Below are positions 2,379 to 39,611 of a stretch of 43,421 bases of DNA, piece after piece. The stretch comes from a virus. The number at the start of each line of letters is the position of its first letter. The first letter of the stretch is position 1. The DNA is taken from IMG/VR virus record IMGVR_UViG_3300012354_000002, positions 1-43,421 of that record. One strand, 5' to 3'. The notes beneath the pieces were generated by a model. That model did no database searches and was not told the DNA's origin. It saw nothing but the letters and a program-made list of their open reading frames with translations. Made by a program: the position numbers and the translations under genes.

Positions 2379-3871
2379 TATGTCACCGTCCACTCCACCG
2401 ACATGTACGACTGATTCTCGCTTATCACGTTGGTGTTTATTGAGCCGCCCGCATTGTGCCAGGCCTCCAGGCGGATGATGTCGCCAGCCGAACAGTCCGT
2501 GGTGATGGACCGGGCCGGAACGACAAGGTTGACGGACGAGTCGTTGGCTACCGCGCACGAGCCCCGTGCGATCGGGGACCCGTTGCGGGTCCACCGCACC
2601 TGCCGACCGCCGCCCACCGCAGCATCGAACGCCATCCCGCCCCGCAGCTTGTACTTGCCCGACCAGCCCGTGGGGATCACATACTCGGCGGCGTTCGCGG
2701 CGTGCCCGTTGTGCGAGTCGTAGTCTTCGGTTTGGAACAGTAGCGCCGTGAACGTGCTGGACCCGATCGACTGGAGGGTGCTTTGCCGCAGCTCCGCCCG
2801 CGGCACGAACGGTGCGGTACGCACCCACGCCGACCCGTTGTAGCGGTACATCATGCGCTCAGCCGCAACCCACACAAGCTGATCAGTGATGGGGCTCACC
2901 ACGTCGGTGGTGGCGTCCACCTCGATGATGGCGCGCTTCCCGCCGTAAGCAGTGACTTGTCCCACCGCCGCCAGGTTGGCGGCCGTCACGTCGCCCGACG
3001 CGGTGACAGTTCCAGCGGTCACCGTGCCCGTCAAAGTCGAGGTGCCGTCCACGATCAGGTTCGCGTCAGTGTCGATGTTGCCGTTGGCGTGGATCGTGCC
3101 CGTCGCCGTCACGTTGCCGGAGGCGGTGACCGTCGGTGCGCTCACCGTTCCGGAAGCGGTGACGGTGGTGGTGCTGACGCCACCGTTGAGGTTCGCCGCA
3201 CCCGACACGGTCACCGCGCCCCCGGCCGTGACCGCCCCATCCAACTGGGTGGTGCCGCGGCTGCGCAGCCCCGGCCGCGTCGAGGCGCTGGGCGTGAGGT
3301 CAACGGTGCCATCGTTGAATACCTGCACCCGGTCCGTGCCGGACTGCTGGAGCAGGAACCCGCGGCGGTCAACGTCGCCCGCCGTGTTCTTGTGCACGAA
3401 CCCGTCCCGCGCCGACGCGTTGTCGGCCACCGACTCGTAGGAGGCGGTCACGCCAACCGGTAGGGCATCGGTGAAGTTGGATTTGTGGGCGCCCCGGAAC
3501 GTCTTGTCCTGCACCGTCTGGGCGCCCTGCGTGCCCACCACCACCCCGGTCACGCCGTGGGCGTTGGTGGCCGCCATGTGCTGCTCTGTGCGGTTGAAGA
3601 AGTCCGCGGGCACCGGATGCTCGAACGAGACGCCGGCACCGTGCGAAGTGGCGGCCGTGCCACCCTGCCCGCGAGCGATGGTCAGGACCGCCCCGGCCAC
3701 GTTGGTGACCCGCACGATCTCCGCCGAGGCGGTCCCCTTCTCCAGCTCGCCCCAGAACGGGGCGGCAGGCCAGCCCGTGTAGGAGGCCACCGTGAAGGTG
3801 AGATCGGATGGCCCGACCGGCGCCGCGGTCGTGGCCGTGGATGCCGTGTTGACGTAGTTCTCGCCGCTCAC
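2378..3871 (-). CDS. tail fibre / receptor-binding protein with VTASG repeats
   Basis: The 497-aa protein has three visible parts. Residues about 1-110 resemble a fibre-attachment domain and include the sequence FFNRTEQHMAATNAHG, a type of pattern common where fibres meet the particle. Residues about 205-310 are a low-complexity stretch of short beta repeats of the form VTASGxVxAxTVTASG, which would form a trimeric beta shaft. Residues about 345-497 form a compact C-terminal domain rich in aromatics (EYVIPTGWSGKYKLRGGMAF), likely the host-binding head with a jelly-roll fold. ATG start; its start overlaps the stop of the upstream gene (ATGA), and its stop overlaps the next gene, giving a tightly coupled tail module. 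Specificity for a host receptor is inferred. Confidence 0.8.
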   Translation of the reverse strand: MSGENYVNTASTATTAAPVGPSDLTFTVASYTGWPAAPFWGELEKGTASAEIVRVTNVAGAVLTIARGQGGTAATSHGAGVSFEHPVPADFFNRTEQHMAATNAHGVTGVVVGTQGAQTVQDKTFRGAHKSNFTDALPVGVTASYESVADNASARDGFVHKNTAGDVDRRGFLLQQSGTDRVQVFNDGTVDLTPSASTRPGLRSRGTTQLDGAVTAGGAVTVSGAANLNGGVSTTTVTASGTVSAPTVTASGNVTATGTIHANGNIDTDANLIVDGTSTLTGTVTAGTVTASGDVTAANLAAVGQVTAYGGKRAIIEVDATTDVVSPITDQLVWVAAERMMYRYNGSAWVRTAPFVPRAELRQSTLQSIGSSTFTALLFQTEDYDSHNGHAANAAEYVIPTGWSGKYKLRGGMAFDAAVGGGRQVRWTRNGSPIARGSCAVANDSSVNLVVPARSITTDCSAGDIIRLEAWHNAGGSINTNVISENQSYMSVEWTVT

Positions 3872-4776
3872 GATGCCAGCTCCTTGTGGGGGCGGACCGG
3901 CCAGCGGTCCAACAGTTTGCGGCGCTCGACGCTCAGCCTCTGCGCGAACAGCTCCTGGAAACGCCTCGATGCGGCAGTCGCAGACCAGCCCTGCAAGGCG
4001 CGCGAACGCTCACCCTGCTCAACCGAGGCCTGCTGGGTACGTGCCGCCTCCGGCGACAGAATCAGTTGCGACTTCGCGAACAGACCCGGCAGATCCGAGG
4101 CCGTAGACGGCAAGCCGGTGGACGCCCACGTGGCCGCCAGATTGGCGGGGTCGGGCACGACAACCGCGGCGCGATAGGTGACCCGCATCGTCACCCCCGA
4201 CAAGCCCAGCGGATACAACCGCAGATACCTTTTGCCGTCCGTGTTGGTGACATCCACCGTCCAAGACTGGATAGCCCGATGCATCTGCGTCGGGCCCAAG
4301 TCCTCCAAGGTCACGTTCAACACCGAATCGCAGTTCGCCGGCAGTTCATAGTTGGACTGCTGCGGAGTGGTCACGTACTCGGCTTCCGCGACGGCGAACA
4401 AGTCTTCGGAGATGGCGTTGATGCCCTCCACCAGTTTCCGCGCGACCTGATAGCGGGCCCAGATCGGATTCACAATCACCCTACTGTTGGGGGGTATTGT
4501 GTCACTGGCCGCGGTGCCCAGTTGCGCCCGAAACCAGGGCGGACAGGTGGTGGTAGAACCGTCCAGCGCGTAATGGGAGACGTGCACGATCTCACCAGTC
4601 GACAGCTCGATGTGGGTGTCGGACAAGTCGGTGGCCACATCGGCGAGCTGGATGCCGACGATGGCGTTCGCGTCGTTGCGGGCCCAGCCGACGAACGTGC
4701 CGGTCCGTTCCGGGCTGGTCGAGTATTGGCGGAGGTCGCCCACGACCTCTTCCGCCAGCTCGCCTAACGTAGTCAT
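3868..4776 (-). CDS. structural protein, possible head-tail adaptor
   Basis: The 302-aa product starts MTTLGELAEEVVGDLRQYST, which resembles the N-termini of phage connector or adaptor proteins that begin with a short helix of the type LxxLxxxVxxxL. The middle is beta-rich (GEIVHVSHYALDGSTTTC) and the C-terminal third is helical with QxxxExxRxRALQGW and a basic end. No catalytic motif is seen. It overlaps the fibre gene by four bases (ATGA), so the two are co-translated. In short-tailed phages a protein in this position commonly attaches the tail to the portal, but I cannot assign the family. Call is inference from context. Confidence 0.65.
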   Translation of the reverse strand: MTTLGELAEEVVGDLRQYSTSPERTGTFVGWARNDANAIVGIQLADVATDLSDTHIELSTGEIVHVSHYALDGSTTTCPPWFRAQLGTAASDTIPPNSRVIVNPIWARYQVARKLVEGINAISEDLFAVAEAEYVTTPQQSNYELPANCDSVLNVTLEDLGPTQMHRAIQSWTVDVTNTDGKRYLRLYPLGLSGVTMRVTYRAAVVVPDPANLAATWASTGLPSTASDLPGLFAKSQLILSPEAARTQQASVEQGERSRALQGWSATAASRRFQELFAQRLSVERRKLLDRWPVRPHKELAS

Positions 4777-28495: not shown

Positions 28496-28777
28496 CTAGC
28501 CGGCCGTCTTGCGTGGTCGACCAGGCTGGCGCTTGACTGGTGCCGCAACGGGCGGCTGCACATCGAGACCAAACTCTTCCCTCATTGCGGCCAGGTTGCT
28601 GGCTTCAGCGTCGCTGGCCGGCGTCTGCATCGGCTCGTATCGAGTGACAAGCCAGTCGATCAGGTCGCCGGCCAGCTCTTCCGACATCAGCCGACTGGAG
28701 TCGGGCTGATACAGGTACAGCGTGCCGTCCTCATTGAATCGGACGGTCACGCCACCAATGCGGACCTCGTTGCTCAC
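28496..28777 (-). CDS. 93-aa protein with AT-hook-like C-terminus
   Basis: GTG at 28777 (overlapping the previous TGA) behind GGGGAAG; the open frame extends to 29164 but only as a shadow of three real genes. The N-terminal half is a small beta unit (VRIGGVTVRFNEDGTLYLYQ), then an acidic helix, and the end is VKRQPGRPRKTAG, whose GRPRK core is the AT-hook signature that inserts in the minor groove of AT-rich DNA. This suggests a small DNA-binding regulator or replication accessory. Inference only. Confidence 0.65.
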   Translation of the reverse strand: MSNEVRIGGVTVRFNEDGTLYLYQPDSSRLMSEELAGDLIDWLVTRYEPMQTPASDAEASNLAAMREEFGLDVQPPVAAPVKRQPGRPRKTAG

Positions 28778-28980
28778 GACTTCCCCTTTTTGACGAGAAG
28801 GTAGATCGGGAATCCGACTACGAGCAGGGTTATGGCCCCCGCAATGGGGCCCCAGGTCGGAGCGAGTACACACCACCATGACCAGTCGATGACGTGCGTC
28901 AGCTTGAGCACGACGAAGGCCACGGTGAGCAGAGTGCTGAGTCCGATCCCGCCACTGCTCGAAGAAGTCTTCTCGCTCAC
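28774..28980 (-). CDS. small membrane protein, two spans
   Basis: 68 aa, GTG start overlapping the stop of the preceding gene. Two hydrophobic segments: about 12-28 (IGLSTLLTVAFVVLKLTHVI) and about 38-62 (PTWGPIAGAITLLVVGFPIY) with a Trp-rich turn (IDWSWWCVLAPTW) between, and a Lys-rich C-terminus. This Trp-Ser-Trp-Trp-x-Val-Leu-Ala-Pro pattern recurs in small phage membrane proteins of many hosts, as I recall, without known function. Candidates are holin-like, superinfection exclusion or membrane-associated replication. Confidence 0.72.
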   Translation of the reverse strand: MSEKTSSSSGGIGLSTLLTVAFVVLKLTHVIDWSWWCVLAPTWGPIAGAITLLVVGFPIYLLVKKGKS

Positions 28981-30055: not shown

Positions 30056-30182
30056 CGCACTCCTCCCCATATGTCCGACCGTCTGGGTTCGGCCCGCTGA
30101 GGTGTTTCGGCCGGCAAGGGCAGTAGAGATCGCGGCACGTTTCGGCCATGCCAGCTACTGGCCACGAGAATGCGTCGATCAT
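29919..30182 (-). CDS. small Cys-rich protein overlapping the primase start
   Basis: ATG at 30182 overlaps the endonuclease VII stop (ATGA), which supports real translation. The first 45 residues look real and hold MAETCRDLYCPCRPKHLSGP, a CxxxxCxC cluster; the last 40 overlap the primase N-terminus in another frame and look like shadow. The real gene may well end as it does here, or be interrupted. Function unknown. Confidence 0.45.
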   Translation of the reverse strand: MIDAFSWPVAGMAETCRDLYCPCRPKHLSGPNPDGRTYGEECDGATVTRAPESADSASAGIPGGRPVEGASPRLVENPVPATSGLVA

Positions 30183-30622
30183 CGTCTCGCCTTTCTTCGA
30201 CGTGGCGCCGGTTCGGCATCCGGTACCACCCGAACACCGATCACGGCCACGGCGGTCGGCGCCTCCAAGTAGTCGGCTGCCCGACGCAACGTTTCAGGGT
30301 TGTCTCGTGCCGCGGTCAGCAGGCGCCCGTTGCACAGCCTGCAAAGCAGGCCCCTCACAACCCCGTCAGAGTGCCTGTGGTCCACGTTCAGGCGGTAGCT
30401 GCGCGTCTGCATGCAGATGGCGCAGGCGCCCTGCTGGGCGGCGAGGATGGCCGTGTACTCGTCGGCCGTGATGCCGTAGGTCTTGCCGATGCGGGCCGCA
30501 TGGTTGGTGGTGCGGGATCGGGTGCGCTGGCATGTCACACACACCCGACCCCGGGCACTCTTGTAGAAGCGTTCGGTCCGGCCCCTGCCGCACTTCTGGC
30601 AGGGCCTGCGCTTCTCGACCAT
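30179..30622 (-). CDS. endonuclease VII-like (HNH-fold) recombination nuclease
   Basis: The 147-aa protein has two Cys pairs at the N-terminus (CQKCGRGRTERFYKSARGRV then CVTC), the helical YGITADEYTAILAAQQGACA, then CAIC, LNVDHRHSDGVVRGLLC and CRLCNGRLL. This is the endonuclease VII pattern (zinc-bound, HNH-like DH), which resolves branched DNA such as Holliday junctions before packaging. A basic tail ends it. GTG/ATG start at 30622, overlapping the next gene's stop. Gene context in the replication operon fits. Confidence 0.85.
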   Translation of the reverse strand: MVEKRRPCQKCGRGRTERFYKSARGRVCVTCQRTRSRTTNHAARIGKTYGITADEYTAILAAQQGACAICMQTRSYRLNVDHRHSDGVVRGLLCRLCNGRLLTAARDNPETLRRAADYLEAPTAVAVIGVRVVPDAEPAPRRRKARR

Positions 30623-30912
30623 CAGTCGACTGCCTCGAAGGAGGCCGTGAACATCTCGTCAGTGCACGCACCCTTGCCCTCGCCCGACCTGTCGATGAGC
30701 CACTCGCCCACGTTGGCTATCCGGCTAGCGCCGGGGGCGCAGCCGGATATGAGCGTGAGAGAGGTGCTCCCGTCGGGGTAGTAGGTGATGGACGCACCCC
30801 ACCTGTCGGCGATGGCGGCCAGCTGAGCCAGGTCGCCTTCGACCTTCTCGGCGAAGATGGGCACAGCCTTCAGCTGGTACTCGCCGAGACCCTGTTTGCG
30901 CTGGTCGTTCAT
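30622..30912 (-). CDS. 96-aa unknown protein
   Basis: ATG at 30912 overlaps the TGA of the Acb2-like gene; the open frame to 31035 is rejected. The product begins MNDQRKQGLGEYQLKAVPIF, has a helix of AEKVEGDLAQLAAIADRWGA, a strand YYPDGSTSLTLISGC and an acidic helical end. Mixed alpha/beta, single domain, no motif. It lies between an anti-defence-type gene and endonuclease VII. Unknown function. Confidence 0.65.
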   Translation of the reverse strand: MNDQRKQGLGEYQLKAVPIFAEKVEGDLAQLAAIADRWGASITYYPDGSTSLTLISGCAPGASRIANVGEWLIDRSGEGKGACTDEMFTASFEAVD

Positions 30913-31133
30913 CAGAACACGTCCTCTGGCTTGGCGACGGAACGCACGAAGGCCATGAAGCCTTCCTGCAGGTGAGTCTTGGCCAGCGCCAGCCAGCGAC
31001 GATCGATGTCGTCGCGTCGGCTGATGGAACGCCACAGTAGCCCGACCTCGCGTTCGAGATCTTTGACGGCGTTGATGTCGCTCAGGTCGAAGTCCGACAG
31101 TTCGCGGTACCCACTGATCGGCTGGTCGGACAT
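30912..31133 (-). CDS. Acb2/Tad1-hairpin-domain protein, putative anti-CBASS
   Basis: The 73-aa product (ATG 31133, sharing bases with the lysin stop) reads ELSDFDLSDINAVKDLEREV, then two helices with RDDIDRRWLALAKTHLQEGF and MAFVRSVAKPEDVF. This is the hairpin pattern of Acb2-type proteins, where RxLALxxxxLExxxMxxxRxxxxPE forms two antiparallel helices; the conserved Ala-x-x-x-Leu-Gln-Glu-Gly-Phe-Met is the diagnostic part. Acb2 proteins form hexamers that sequester cyclic oligonucleotides and block CBASS and Thoeris-like defence. Whether the ligand-binding residues are all present needs alignment. Family call is from memory of the pattern, strong but not run against a profile. Confidence 0.68.
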   Translation of the reverse strand: MSDQPISGYRELSDFDLSDINAVKDLEREVGLLWRSISRRDDIDRRWLALAKTHLQEGFMAFVRSVAKPEDVF

Positions 31134-31990
31134 CAGCTGACCTGTCCCGTGTTGGGGTTGCCGTCGCGGTTGCGCCGGTCGATCTCGTCCACGATCTCGG
31201 CGGCCGAAGGCATCAACGGCAGGATCACCCGCGCCAGCTCGGCCAAGTCCACGCCGCCCAGCTGGAGCGCGTCGACCTGCGCCTTCACATCCTGCGCCAG
31301 CGACACGGCCGCGTTCACCCGGCCCACCACGTAGCCCAGCTGGCGAGAAAGGTTGCTCTGCTCGTAGTCCTGCCCGGACACCACCGTCTTCCAGACGGCG
31401 GCAAGGGCGGCGTCCTGCTCCGAGTTCATGTCTTCCTCCGTGATCGGTTTGAGAATCAGGTTGCGGTCGCAGGTGATCCCACCCACCTGGACCTGAACGT
31501 TGTTGTCCTGCCACACATGCACATGCCCGGCCACGTCCGAGCGCCGCCCCGACTGCCAGAAGTAGGAGGCGTGACCGAGCGCCAAGTCGACGGCGTTGCG
31601 GAAGCCGTACGCACCCACGCGCGACACGCTCAGCACCGACGCGGCGCCGTCCAGGTAGCCCCGCCATGCGCCAGCGTCGGGCACGGTGGTCCGGTCGTTG
31701 GTGAAGAAGATGGGACCGATGTAGCCCAGGTATTGCGCGCCCGCAAGCGCCCTGCGTGCGTGCTCCTGGCCCGCGAGGTAGCCGCCGTCAGATGCGGTGG
31801 TAGTGGTCTGCATCACCAGCAGCACGTCCAGGCCAGCAGCCTTGTGCGACTGGTACTCGGCCAGGTTGGTGTGCTTGGTGCCCAGGTTCGGCGGGCTGTC
31901 GATGTAGCGGATGGCTCCGCTATAGCCGGCCGCCTTGATGGTGTTGCCGGACAGACGCGCAGCTGAGTAGTCTAGGTAGTAGGGCATCAC
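31133..31990 (-). CDS. endolysin: glycoside-hydrolase-like DUF1906 protein
   Basis: The 285-aa protein starts MMPYYLDYSAARLSGNTIKA; ATG 31987 or GTG 31990 overlaps the previous stop. Residues 1-200 have the DUF1906 fold (rv2525c-like, glycoside-hydrolase barrel): YLDYSAARLSG, AIRYIDSPP, LVMQTTTTASDGGYLAGQEH, YIGPIFFTND, GAYGFRNAVD, FWQSGR and HVHVWQDN, ordered as strands of a TIM-like barrel with Asp/Glu in the expected positions. Peptidoglycan cutting is inferred from family context in actinobacteriophages. Residues about 205-285 are a helical C-terminus that may bind wall or partners. It is unusually far from the holin-like genes at 0-0.5 kb. Confidence 0.72.
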   Translation of the reverse strand: MMPYYLDYSAARLSGNTIKAAGYSGAIRYIDSPPNLGTKHTNLAEYQSHKAAGLDVLLVMQTTTTASDGGYLAGQEHARRALAGAQYLGYIGPIFFTNDRTTVPDAGAWRGYLDGAASVLSVSRVGAYGFRNAVDLALGHASYFWQSGRRSDVAGHVHVWQDNNVQVQVGGITCDRNLILKPITEEDMNSEQDAALAAVWKTVVSGQDYEQSNLSRQLGYVVGRVNAAVSLAQDVKAQVDALQLGGVDLAELARVILPLMPSAAEIVDEIDRRNRDGNPNTGQVS

Positions 31991-32475: not shown

Positions 32476-33249
32476 CTAACTCGCCATCATTCGCTCGTAA
32501 TCAACAGTCACCGGTACCCGCACGCCCAAACCCGAAGGATCGGCTGCGGCCTCACGACACTTCACCACCGACAGAAACACGGTGTCGGAGAATGCGCCCC
32601 GACACACCGTCAGCACGAGGCTCGACTTCTTGGTGGCCTTGAAGTTGACGCCGGCCAACGGGATCGTTGTCCGGCCGTCCTCGTACTGTCCGTTCACGTG
32701 CGCGAGAACCACGACGGCCGTGTTCGCTATCCGGGCCAGTGCACACAACGCCTGCTCCGCCTCCGAGTAGGCGGGGAACGATTCCTCCCCCGCCACATCC
32801 ATCATGTTGTCGACCACGATCAGATGCGGTAGTTCGCCCCACAGTTCGGCGAACGCCCACACCCTGTCACGAATCTCAACCATGTCGGGCGAGCCTGGGA
32901 AGTCCCAGCGGACGTACTCGTCAATGGTATCGAACGTCCTGCGGGCTTTCTGCGAAGTGATATCCAGTTCGGCTTCGGCCTCTTCACGGGTGAACCCGTT
33001 CCAGGCTTGTGTCACGCGGATGGACATGGAGGTTTCGTCCCCGTCCATCGCCAGATACAGGGTGGGCACGCCCGCGTTGATGGCCAGGTTGATGGCCAAC
33101 ACCGACTTGCCCACGCCTGGTGCTGAGGCCACCACATGCAGGTGGCCACGCCGGAACTGGACCTGCTTGTCCCCGAGGGTGCGGTAGACGGTCGGCAGTG
33201 GGAGTCCCGCACTCCCACTGCGCCGCGCCGCCTGACGAAGACTAGGCAT
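32476..33249 (-). CDS. DnaB/RecA-fold replicative ATPase (helicase)
   Basis: ATG at 33249 (overlapping the exonuclease stop); longer frames to 33396 are Arg-rich shadow. The 257-aa protein has Walker A ASAPGVGKS (about 41-49), a following helix (VLAINLAINAGVPTLYLAMD), and Walker B HLIVVDNMMD (about 142-151, D147), then VVVLAHVNGQ, an H-motif with Lys/Arg arrangement like DnaB and KaiC. The N-terminal primase-binding domain of DnaB is missing and the basic start is short, so it is a stand-alone RecA-like motor that probably works with the split primase. Length is half that of classical DnaB. Confidence 0.8.
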   Translation of the reverse strand: MPSLRQAARRSGSAGLPLPTVYRTLGDKQVQFRRGHLHVVASAPGVGKSVLAINLAINAGVPTLYLAMDGDETSMSIRVTQAWNGFTREEAEAELDITSQKARRTFDTIDEYVRWDFPGSPDMVEIRDRVWAFAELWGELPHLIVVDNMMDVAGEESFPAYSEAEQALCALARIANTAVVVLAHVNGQYEDGRTTIPLAGVNFKATKKSSLVLTVCRGAFSDTVFLSVVKCREAAADPSGLGVRVPVTVDYERMMAS

Positions 33250-33850
33250 CCTCGCCCTTGACGATGGCGTCGTACCACCGCATCGCCCAGCGAGCGTCAC
33301 CCTCGGCCGTGTGTCGCTCCTCCTCGGTCGGCGGCGACACGCCGCAAGCCTGAGACAGCGCGTCCGATTTCCACGGCAGGTCGACCGGCACGCCATGCCG
33401 GGCCGAAAGGTACCCGACGGCCAACGCCTCCACGTCGATGAGGTGGTAGTGCCACGCCGGGATCAACCCCTGCGAGCGAAGTAGCTTGTCGAGAACCTCG
33501 GAGTCGAAGTTCGGTACCGCTCCGACAAGGTGTGCACCATGAGTGAATTGGGCCACCCACTCCGCCGCTTGCGGCAAGGAGGTCAGGCCCGCAGCAGGGA
33601 TCGAGGTCTTCCGACTCAGGTATCGACCCTGCGGGTGACGGTCGTAGAACCCGCCGATCTTCAAGCCGAAGGGGTCTGCGTTCGAGAGATCCACGGGGAG
33701 CATGTAGTTCGCCACCCGTTCTTTGCCGTCCTCTTCGCGACGGATTATGGCGATCTCCCACGCATGGCGACCGGGATGTACACCCGTGGTTTCGGTGTCG
33801 ACGAATGCGAGAGCGGCCACGTCAGGCCGCCGACAGAGCGTCGATGGCAT
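33242..33850 (-). CDS. DnaQ-like 3'-5' exonuclease
   Basis: The 202-aa protein has the DEDDh set: AFVDTETTGVHPGRHAWEIA (Exo I, D and E), VGAVPNFDSEVLDKLL (Exo II) and HTAEGDARWAMRW (Exo III, His-x-Ala-x-x-x-Asp). It is like the epsilon proofreading subunit, but stands alone. Start ATG 33850 or, with only two bases between it and the upstream stop, GTG at 33820 (192 aa). A second exonuclease at 27.4 kb has a different (DEDDy) type, so the phage has two with no polymerase of its own. Confidence 0.8.
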   Translation of the reverse strand: MPSTLCRRPDVAALAFVDTETTGVHPGRHAWEIAIIRREEDGKERVANYMLPVDLSNADPFGLKIGGFYDRHPQGRYLSRKTSIPAAGLTSLPQAAEWVAQFTHGAHLVGAVPNFDSEVLDKLLRSQGLIPAWHYHLIDVEALAVGYLSARHGVPVDLPWKSDALSQACGVSPPTEEERHTAEGDARWAMRWYDAIVKGEDA

Positions 33851-37980: not shown

Positions 37981-38685
37981 CGAACTGACACCTGCAACAC
38001 CGACGGCTGCTTTAAGACGCGGTGGCGCAAGGACCCGGGACTGTGCCAGGCCTGCGCACGCAAAGCCGGCCTGTACCCCGAGCTGGCCGAATGCGCCGAA
38101 GACGGCTGCACACGCAAGGCCCGCTCGCTCGGGGTGGGCAGCAGGTGTCGCAAACACGGCGGCCCCGCCCCCAAAGGGACAGTGCAGCCGGGGGAGACGA
38201 GCCTGTGCAAGGCTCGCGACTGTCGCTACCGGGCCGGCGAGGGCGGCCTGTGCGGCAAACACCGAAACGCCTCGGAGACCGCCCGGGACCGTTCCCGTTG
38301 CGTCACGCCCGCCTGCGTGAACGTTCGCAGCCGGGCGGGCGGCTACTGCTTCGTCTGCTACCGGCGCTACGGCTCCACCCTCAACACCTGCGCGCACCCA
38401 CTGTGTCAACACAAGACGGTTGACGAGTACTGCGAGTCGCACGACGTGGGCCTGGACTATGCCGCGGGCGACTGGTTCGACTGGGTTGCCGCGGAGCGCT
38501 TGTTCCACGGCAGCCACGGCAGTCGCAAGCCGACCGTCCCCGAGCTGCTCTGGGTTCTGGCCAAGGCCGACCGAGTGAACCTGGAGTACACGGTGTTGGC
38601 CGAGCGGATCGGCATTCAGCACAGGCTGATGGCGAGCTGGCGCAAGACCGCCGCCCGTATCGAAGAGGCGCGGGTGGCCGCATGA
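37972..38685 (+). CDS. five-zinc-finger protein with C-terminal HTH
   Basis: The 237-aa protein carries five tandem units, each with two Cys, a basic linker, Cys and then Cys or His: CNTDGCFKT (unit 1), CAEDGCTRKARS, CKARDCRYRA, CVTPACVNVRS and CAHPLCQHKT, every one closed by CxxC, CxxH or similar. Spacing is about Cx4C-x10-14-Cx2[C/H]. Such a string of small fingers is typical of sequence-specific DNA recognition. Residues about 155-237 look like a separate helical domain with AERIGIQHRLMASWRKTAAR, possibly a helix-turn-helix. ATG at 37972 lies in a CGAAAG-type inverted repeat. The gene directly precedes a DNA methyltransferase (ATGA overlap), so it may guide or regulate it. I know no named family. 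Confidence 0.75.
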   Translation: MKARTDTCNTDGCFKTRWRKDPGLCQACARKAGLYPELAECAEDGCTRKARSLGVGSRCRKHGGPAPKGTVQPGETSLCKARDCRYRAGEGGLCGKHRNASETARDRSRCVTPACVNVRSRAGGYCFVCYRRYGSTLNTCAHPLCQHKTVDEYCESHDVGLDYAAGDWFDWVAAERLFHGSHGSRKPTVPELLWVLAKADRVNLEYTVLAERIGIQHRLMASWRKTAARIEEARVAA

Positions 38686-39611
38686 GAATCGGATCACTCT
38701 GCACCGGCTACGGCGGGCTGGACATGGCCGCCCAGCGCGTCTTCGGCGGTCGCCTCAGGTGGGTGTCCGACGTGGACCCCGGCCCGATCGCGCTCCTAGC
38801 CCATCACTACCCCGACGTACCAAACCTCGGCGACCTCAAGACCGTCGACTGGGCCACCGTCGAACTCGTCGACCTACTCACGGCCGGCTACCCGTGCCAG
38901 CCCTTCAGCAACGCAGGGAAGCGCCTTGGAACCGAAGACCCCCGCCACCTCTGGCCCTGGATCGCCCGCGCCATTGGCGCACTACGACCCCGAATCGTCG
39001 TCCTGGAGAACGTCGCAGCCCACCTCCGGAAAGGGTTCGACGTCGTTCTCGCAGACCTTGCCGGCCTCGGGTATGACGTCGCGTGGTCGATTGTTCGCGC
39101 TTCCGACACCGGAGCCGCTCACCAAAGGGCCCGACTCTTCATCGTCGCTACCGACGCCGCTCGCGAACCTGTCGAAGGGAGCTTGGCCGAAGCAGTCCCG
39201 GCAAGGGGGGCCTTCCCTCCAGACGGCCTTGCTAGCCCTGTTCCCGACACCGAGAGCGTCGGACGGCGAGAAGGGGGGCCCCAACCAGCGCAGTTCGAGC
39301 GGGGACCCGATGCTGCCCACGATCGTGAACCGCTTGACTGGCAAGAGTTCGAACCAGCCATCCGCCAATGGGAACGCCGCTTAGGCCGGCCCGCTCCGGC
39401 TCCGTCCGTGTTCGGCCCGCGCGGCGGGGTGAAGGTGTCCCCAGCGTTCGGCGAGTGGCTCATGGGCCTGCCTGAGGGACGCATCACCGACGTGCCCGGC
39501 CTGTCGATCAACGAACAACTGAAGCTGGTCGGCAACGGTGTCGTGCCACAGCAGGCCGAGCACGCGATCCGGTATCTAACGGCTCAACTCGTAGTGCACG
39601 ATGCCGCATGA
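38682..39611 (+). CDS. C5 cytosine DNA methyltransferase
   Basis: The 309-aa protein has the ten-motif order: motif I SLCTGYGGLD (about 5-14, SAM binding), motif IV with catalytic Cys GYPCQPFSNAGKR (C72), motif VI ENVAAHL (about 109-115), motif VIII QRARLFIV (about 148-155) and motif X LKLVGNGVVPQQ near the C-terminus. The target-recognition region between VIII and IX is short. No restriction enzyme gene adjoins it, so it is an orphan enzyme, useful for escaping host restriction. ATG overlaps the zinc-finger gene by four bases and its stop overlaps the next HTH gene. A second frame open inside it is treated separately. Confidence 0.92.
   Translation: MRIGSLCTGYGGLDMAAQRVFGGRLRWVSDVDPGPIALLAHHYPDVPNLGDLKTVDWATVELVDLLTAGYPCQPFSNAGKRLGTEDPRHLWPWIARAIGALRPRIVVLENVAAHLRKGFDVVLADLAGLGYDVAWSIVRASDTGAAHQRARLFIVATDAAREPVEGSLAEAVPARGAFPPDGLASPVPDTESVGRREGGPQPAQFERGPDAAHDREPLDWQEFEPAIRQWERRLGRPAPAPSVFGPRGGVKVSPAFGEWLMGLPEGRITDVPGLSINEQLKLVGNGVVPQQAEHAIRYLTAQLVVHDAA
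38926..39384 (+). CDS. possible overprinted ORF inside the methyltransferase gene
   Basis: In the +1 frame relative to the methyltransferase an ORF of 152 codons runs through its middle. Its peptide has the segments SSSWRTSQ, TLPASGMTSRGRLFALPTPEP and FPTPRASDGEKGGPNQRSS; I associate the SSSWRTSQ...LPxSGM...LPTPxAxDG order with proteins found beside C5 methyltransferases in other phages and bacteria. The methyltransferase frame in the same bases has its own conserved motifs (ENV, QRARLF). If both are true this is dual coding. High GC makes open second frames common, so I score it as a candidate only. Confidence 0.35.
   Translation: MEPKTPATSGPGSPAPLAHYDPESSSWRTSQPTSGKGSTSFSQTLPASGMTSRGRLFALPTPEPLTKGPDSSSSLPTPLANLSKGAWPKQSRQGGPSLQTALLALFPTPRASDGEKGGPNQRSSSGDPMLPTIVNRLTGKSSNQPSANGNAA

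Follow-up and report, generated by a model that had tools for sequence, protein, structure and literature searches.

A probable Acb2-family sponge with a short connector, encoded beside the endolysin gene of an uncultured, probably actinobacterial phage

The stretch of DNA analysed here, referred to as the window, comprises all 43,421 nucleotides of the IMG/VR virus record IMGVR_UViG_3300012354_000002. On its minus strand, an ORF running from ATG to stop (30912-31133) encodes a protein of 73 amino acids (MSDQPISGYRELSDFDLSDINAVKDLEREVGLLWRSISRRDDIDRRWLALAKTHLQEGFMAFVRSVAKPEDVF), and it was at exactly these coordinates that an earlier reading, made without database searches (the sequence-only reading), had placed an Acb2-like putative anti-CBASS gene. 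The window contains one acb2 copy, which is listed together with its neighbours in Table 1.

Table 1. Features of the acb2 locus in the window
Feature	Position	Strand	Evidence or remark
acb2-like gene, product a stand-alone Acb2/Tad1 hairpin of 73 aa	30912..31133	-	ORF call, Pfam, PHROG, phmmer, fold
TGATG overlap of endolysin stop and acb2 start, A in common	31131..31135	-	sequence; putative translational coupling
TGATG overlap of acb2 stop with the start codon (ATG) of the next ORF (96 aa)	30910..30914	-	sequence
Endolysin with Rv2525c-like glycoside hydrolase domain	31133..31990	-	PF08924, endolysin PHROG
96-aa ORF downstream of acb2, same operon	30622..30912	-	no family in Pfam/PHROGs
Endonuclease VII, same operon	30179..30622	-	Pfam, PHROGs
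DnaB-like helicase, marks replication operon and actinobacteriophage affinity	32476..33252	-	Pfam, PHROGs

The endolysin gene lies immediately upstream of acb2, and the operon also encodes a DnaQ-like and a PD-(D/E)XK exonuclease, the endonuclease VII and a DNA primase on the same strand, which together with the helicase bears out the proposed setting among tiny genes of a replication operon next to the endolysin. Due to the TGATG overlaps at both of its ends, acb2 is tightly packed and probably co-translated with its neighbours. The helicase and the endolysin are closest to those of Mycobacterium, Gordonia and Rhodococcus phages. From these affinities an actinobacterial host is likely, and the window probably represents an uncultured phage infecting actinobacteria.

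For the 96-aa ORF that overlaps the end of acb2, a search in Pfam and PHROGs resulted in no family match; it could be either a partner gene or another counter-defence gene. Two further genes of the window should be mentioned. A DNA methyltransferase gene (PHROG 363) at 38682-39611 is located on the plus strand, opposite to most genes, and possibly also serves counter-defence. A small protein of 68 amino acids (PHROG 1374) is encoded at 28774-28980 on the minus strand; the DNA of this gene matches phages of Gordonia, Rhodococcus and Mycobacterium, in some of which it is labelled as a membrane protein.

For the analysis of selection, acb2 of the window was compared with homologues from three IMG/VR contigs (L002, L003 and L004), whose proteins are 73% (L002) and 66% (L003 and L004) identical to that of the window. 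dS could be estimated in two of the six pairs only, namely window/L002 (dN 0.23, dS 1.11) and L003/L004 (dN 0.02, dS 0.28), as synonymous sites were saturated in the other four (dN 0.28-0.29). In both estimable pairs dS clearly exceeds dN, and the window gene evolves under purifying selection. Across the nine closest sequences, the stretch THLQEGFM does not vary. A chance ORF could be ruled out by the family score, the selection and the TGATG overlaps.

The family assignment was verified with several sequence searches. The protein matches the Pfam family PF24729 (Acb2_Tad1_hairpin) with 59.6 bits (E = 3.4e-16), for which the curated cut-off is 27 bits, and PHROG 717, the family by which Jenson et al. 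defined the Vs.4 homologues (PMC10097602), with an E-value of 6e-15. A phmmer search against the PDB revealed p26 of phage PaMx33, which is Acb2 (E = 5e-8), and T4 Vs.4 (8e-4), and no other match below 1; the NCBIfam search gave no match. The hairpin match begins at residue 8 of 73, so that only seven residues precede it. The sequence-only reading had placed the protein among the Acb2/Tad1-hairpin proteins, of which the stand-alone Acb2 hairpin could be retained. Tad1 (Thoeris anti-defence 1) has the PF24729 hairpin in common with the window protein as its C-terminal part, but membership in Tad1 proper was ruled out, because the N-terminal beta-sheet domain of Tad1 is missing in the window protein.

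An AlphaFold model of the single chain, built from 43 aligned relatives, reached a mean pLDDT of 89.5 and contains two antiparallel helices (H14-38 and H45-67), in agreement with the two-helix hairpin described in the sequence-only reading; the core ALAKTHLQEGFM named there covers residues 49-60. The short N-terminal helix of Acb2 was not called by DSSP on this model. A Foldseek search of the model against the PDB retrieved eight Acb2/Vs.4 chains at a probability of 1.00, and the best match apart from these chains did not exceed 0.38, so that the structural match on which the Acb2 proposal had in part been made to depend was found. As modelled, the protein is a small stand-alone helical hairpin like the solved Acb2 proteins. 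The Acb2 identity is thus supported by independent tests on sequence and on predicted structure.

The ligand pocket was examined in an alignment of 95 relatives with PaMx33 Acb2 and one T4-type Vs.4. In the crystal structure of Vs.4, cGAMP is stacked on Y8 and F82 and bonded by Y8, H11, K23 and R79 (Jenson et al., PMC10097602). Y9, K24 and R64 of the window protein correspond to Y8, K23 and R79 and are kept in 93, 93 and 95 of the 95 relatives, respectively; the main cyclic dinucleotide contacts are therefore conserved. T53, which is kept in 92 of the 95, corresponds to Vs.4 T68, and the exchange T68M in T4 Acb2 weakens binding. F82 and H11 are replaced by A67 and L12 in the window protein, which counts against the sponge reading, although PaMx33 Acb2 likewise has A88 and L14 there. 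Judged from the alignment, these two residues appear to be specific to T4 and no defining mark of the Acb2 family.

The Vs.4 hexamer is held by L29, A66, A73 and A77 (Jenson et al., PMC10097602). Among these interface residues, A66 is retained as A51 in the window protein, A73 is replaced by G58 (G79 in PaMx33) and A77 by F62, a position occupied in PaMx33 by I83, which is likewise large and hydrophobic; V30 differs from the Vs.4 interface residue as well. Apart from Y9, K24, R64 and T53, the contact positions thus align with the PaMx33 pattern and not with that of T4. All 95 relatives retain R46, the counterpart of PaMx33 R67, and this position may take part in trinucleotide binding.

PaMx33 Acb2 (p26; PDB 8H2J, 8H2X, 8IXZ) shares with the window protein the Pfam family, the hairpin fold (TM 0.75-0.78 by query length) and the Y/K/R pocket including the A and L at the positions of F82 and H11, but the two are only about 34% identical over the structural alignment. 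T4 Vs.4 (Acb2; PDB 7UQ2) has the same fold with Y8, K23, R79, T68 and A66 conserved; it is 26% identical and differs at F82, H11, S74 and A77.

Acb2 proteins are small proteins that take up the cyclic-nucleotide alarm signals by which infected bacteria bring about their own death. Taken together with the pocket, we consider it highly probable that the window protein is an Acb2-family hexameric sponge that sequesters the cyclic oligonucleotides of CBASS. By homology with PaMx33 Acb2 and T4 Vs.4, the predicted 73-aa helical hairpin would assemble into a compact hexamer, in which cyclic dinucleotides would be bound between pairs of protomers via Y9 (base stacking and a hydrogen bond), K24 and R64. 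Such a hexamer would absorb the CBASS signal made by the cGAS-like enzyme of the host without catalysis, the CBASS effector would stay off, and the infected cell would live long enough for phage production. Hexamer formation, the identity of the ligand, the protection of the phage and CBASS as the target in preference to another cyclic-nucleotide defence are what we infer here. Since T4 Acb2 can be sensed by Panoptes, carriage of acb2 may be costly in some hosts.

A further difference from the solved proteins is the short connector between the two helices. By alignment columns, the interval from K24 to R46 comprises 21 residues in the window protein, in contrast to 40 in PaMx33, 37 in Vs.4 (T4-type RB32 copy) and 55 in JBD67. 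Compared with the solved Acb2 proteins of PaMx33 and T4, the connector is shortened by 16-19 residues. The 21-residue interval was found in 63 of 94 fetched loci, a sample biased towards the query, and also in Pseudomonas phage 5400. Because of the shorter connector, the hexamer geometry and any trinucleotide site of the window protein are not assured. It is conceivable, though rather unlikely, that the short-connector hairpins form a distinct Acb2 subgroup, in which shorter helices alter the assembly or the ligand range and yield sponges tuned to different signals; the trinucleotide site, for example, may be lost or changed. In the sequence search of the PDB, the solved Acb2 proteins were those of PaMx33 and T4 only, both with long connectors and without a short form among them. 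For this reason, the minimal 73-aa form lends itself to testing which hairpin parts hexamer assembly and the binding of the individual ligands require.

A sponge acting mainly against another nucleotide-signalling defence, with Thoeris gcADPR or type III CRISPR cA3 as the ligand, was weighed against the CBASS reading. The Pfam family spans Acb2 and Tad1, which have the hairpin domain in common, and sponges bind several signals: Tad1 binds gcADPR in addition to cyclic nucleotides, and T4 Acb2 binds 2',3'-c-di-AMP with a Kd of ~62 nM. However, the seven residues ahead of the hairpin match leave the window protein without the beta domain of Tad1, and its sequence and fold matches in the PDB are to Acb2 and Vs.4 and none to Tad1, which renders this explanation improbable.

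The closest relatives of acb2 are located at different sites in their phages. The homologue at L002:5001-5222 (contig G001) belongs to a sister phage, the major capsid protein of which is 87% identical to that of the window, and the portal, terminase and other structural proteins mostly 55-79%. There, acb2 lies in the structural module, between the capsid gene and further structural genes located downstream, about 24 kb away from the site beside the endolysin that it occupies in the window. No homologue of the replication-operon proteins of the window could be detected on the L002 contig, so a second acb2 copy in this phage is possible. The genes at L003:4025-4240 and L004:4186-4401 are embedded in an array of 19-20 tRNAs, where tRNA-Phe and tRNA-Tyr flank them, and apart from acb2 these two contigs have none of the tested proteins in common with the window. 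This suggests a counter-defence gene borne in a tRNA cluster. In Pseudomonas phage 5400, an acb2 homologue directly follows the endolysin. The differing sites among close phages and the tRNA arrays support the view of acb2 as a mobile counter-defence gene.

The endolysin neighbour in the window and in phage 5400, as well as the label 'Rz-like spanin' on one homologue (H3), would fit a diverged hairpin that has kept the fold and lost nucleotide binding, such as an accessory protein with a role in structure or lysis. Against this, the ligand residues are near-invariant, neither a lipobox nor a transmembrane segment is apparent in the window sequence, and the three close relatives described above adjoin a capsid gene or sit in tRNA arrays, away from an endolysin; this explanation is very improbable. 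The narrower reading as a lysis protein or spanin, drawn from the endolysin neighbour and the one public label, was ruled out by the Acb2 fold and family. That the protein instead regulates the cyclic dinucleotide physiology of the host (actinobacterial c-di-AMP or c-di-GMP) outside immunity is hardly probable: cAA is among the Acb2 ligands (PMC10419184), but the known members are counter-defence proteins and the neighbourhood gives no hint of a regulatory role.

As a probable Acb2-family sponge, the window protein can be compared with further short-form homologues, which belong to the same family and are similarly short, for example those of Pseudomonas phage 5400, vB_PaeS-D14B, the jumbo phages GAP32 and Munch, and the IMG/VR contigs L002-L004. 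The short forms of the named phages, mostly phages of proteobacteria, are at most 53% identical to the window protein and are annotated as hypothetical or mislabelled. Putative Acb2 proteins have been published for Microbacterium phage Statler and the mycobacteriophages Xandras and BigBubba (PMC13348362, PMC11953737), to which the window protein is likened by predicted function; among the matches in the phage collection at E <= 1e-5, no actinobacteriophage was named. The role of the Acb2-type proteins of mycobacteriophages was reported as unknown (PMC11953737). With the window protein, a probable actinobacterial phage gains a well-supported Acb2, and the already known family a short-connector example from such a phage.

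Two minor observations concern the homologues. In PP003914 (H3), MZ868717 (H64) and MK511060 (H113), Acb2 homologues carry the labels 'Rz-like spanin' and 'NAD/FAD-utilizing enzyme', which are probable mislabels. Just upstream of acb2 in L002, the end of the ORF 3605-4540 reads like a putative LAGLIDADG homing endonuclease (MADFDPVDLAYAAGIMDGEGT...).
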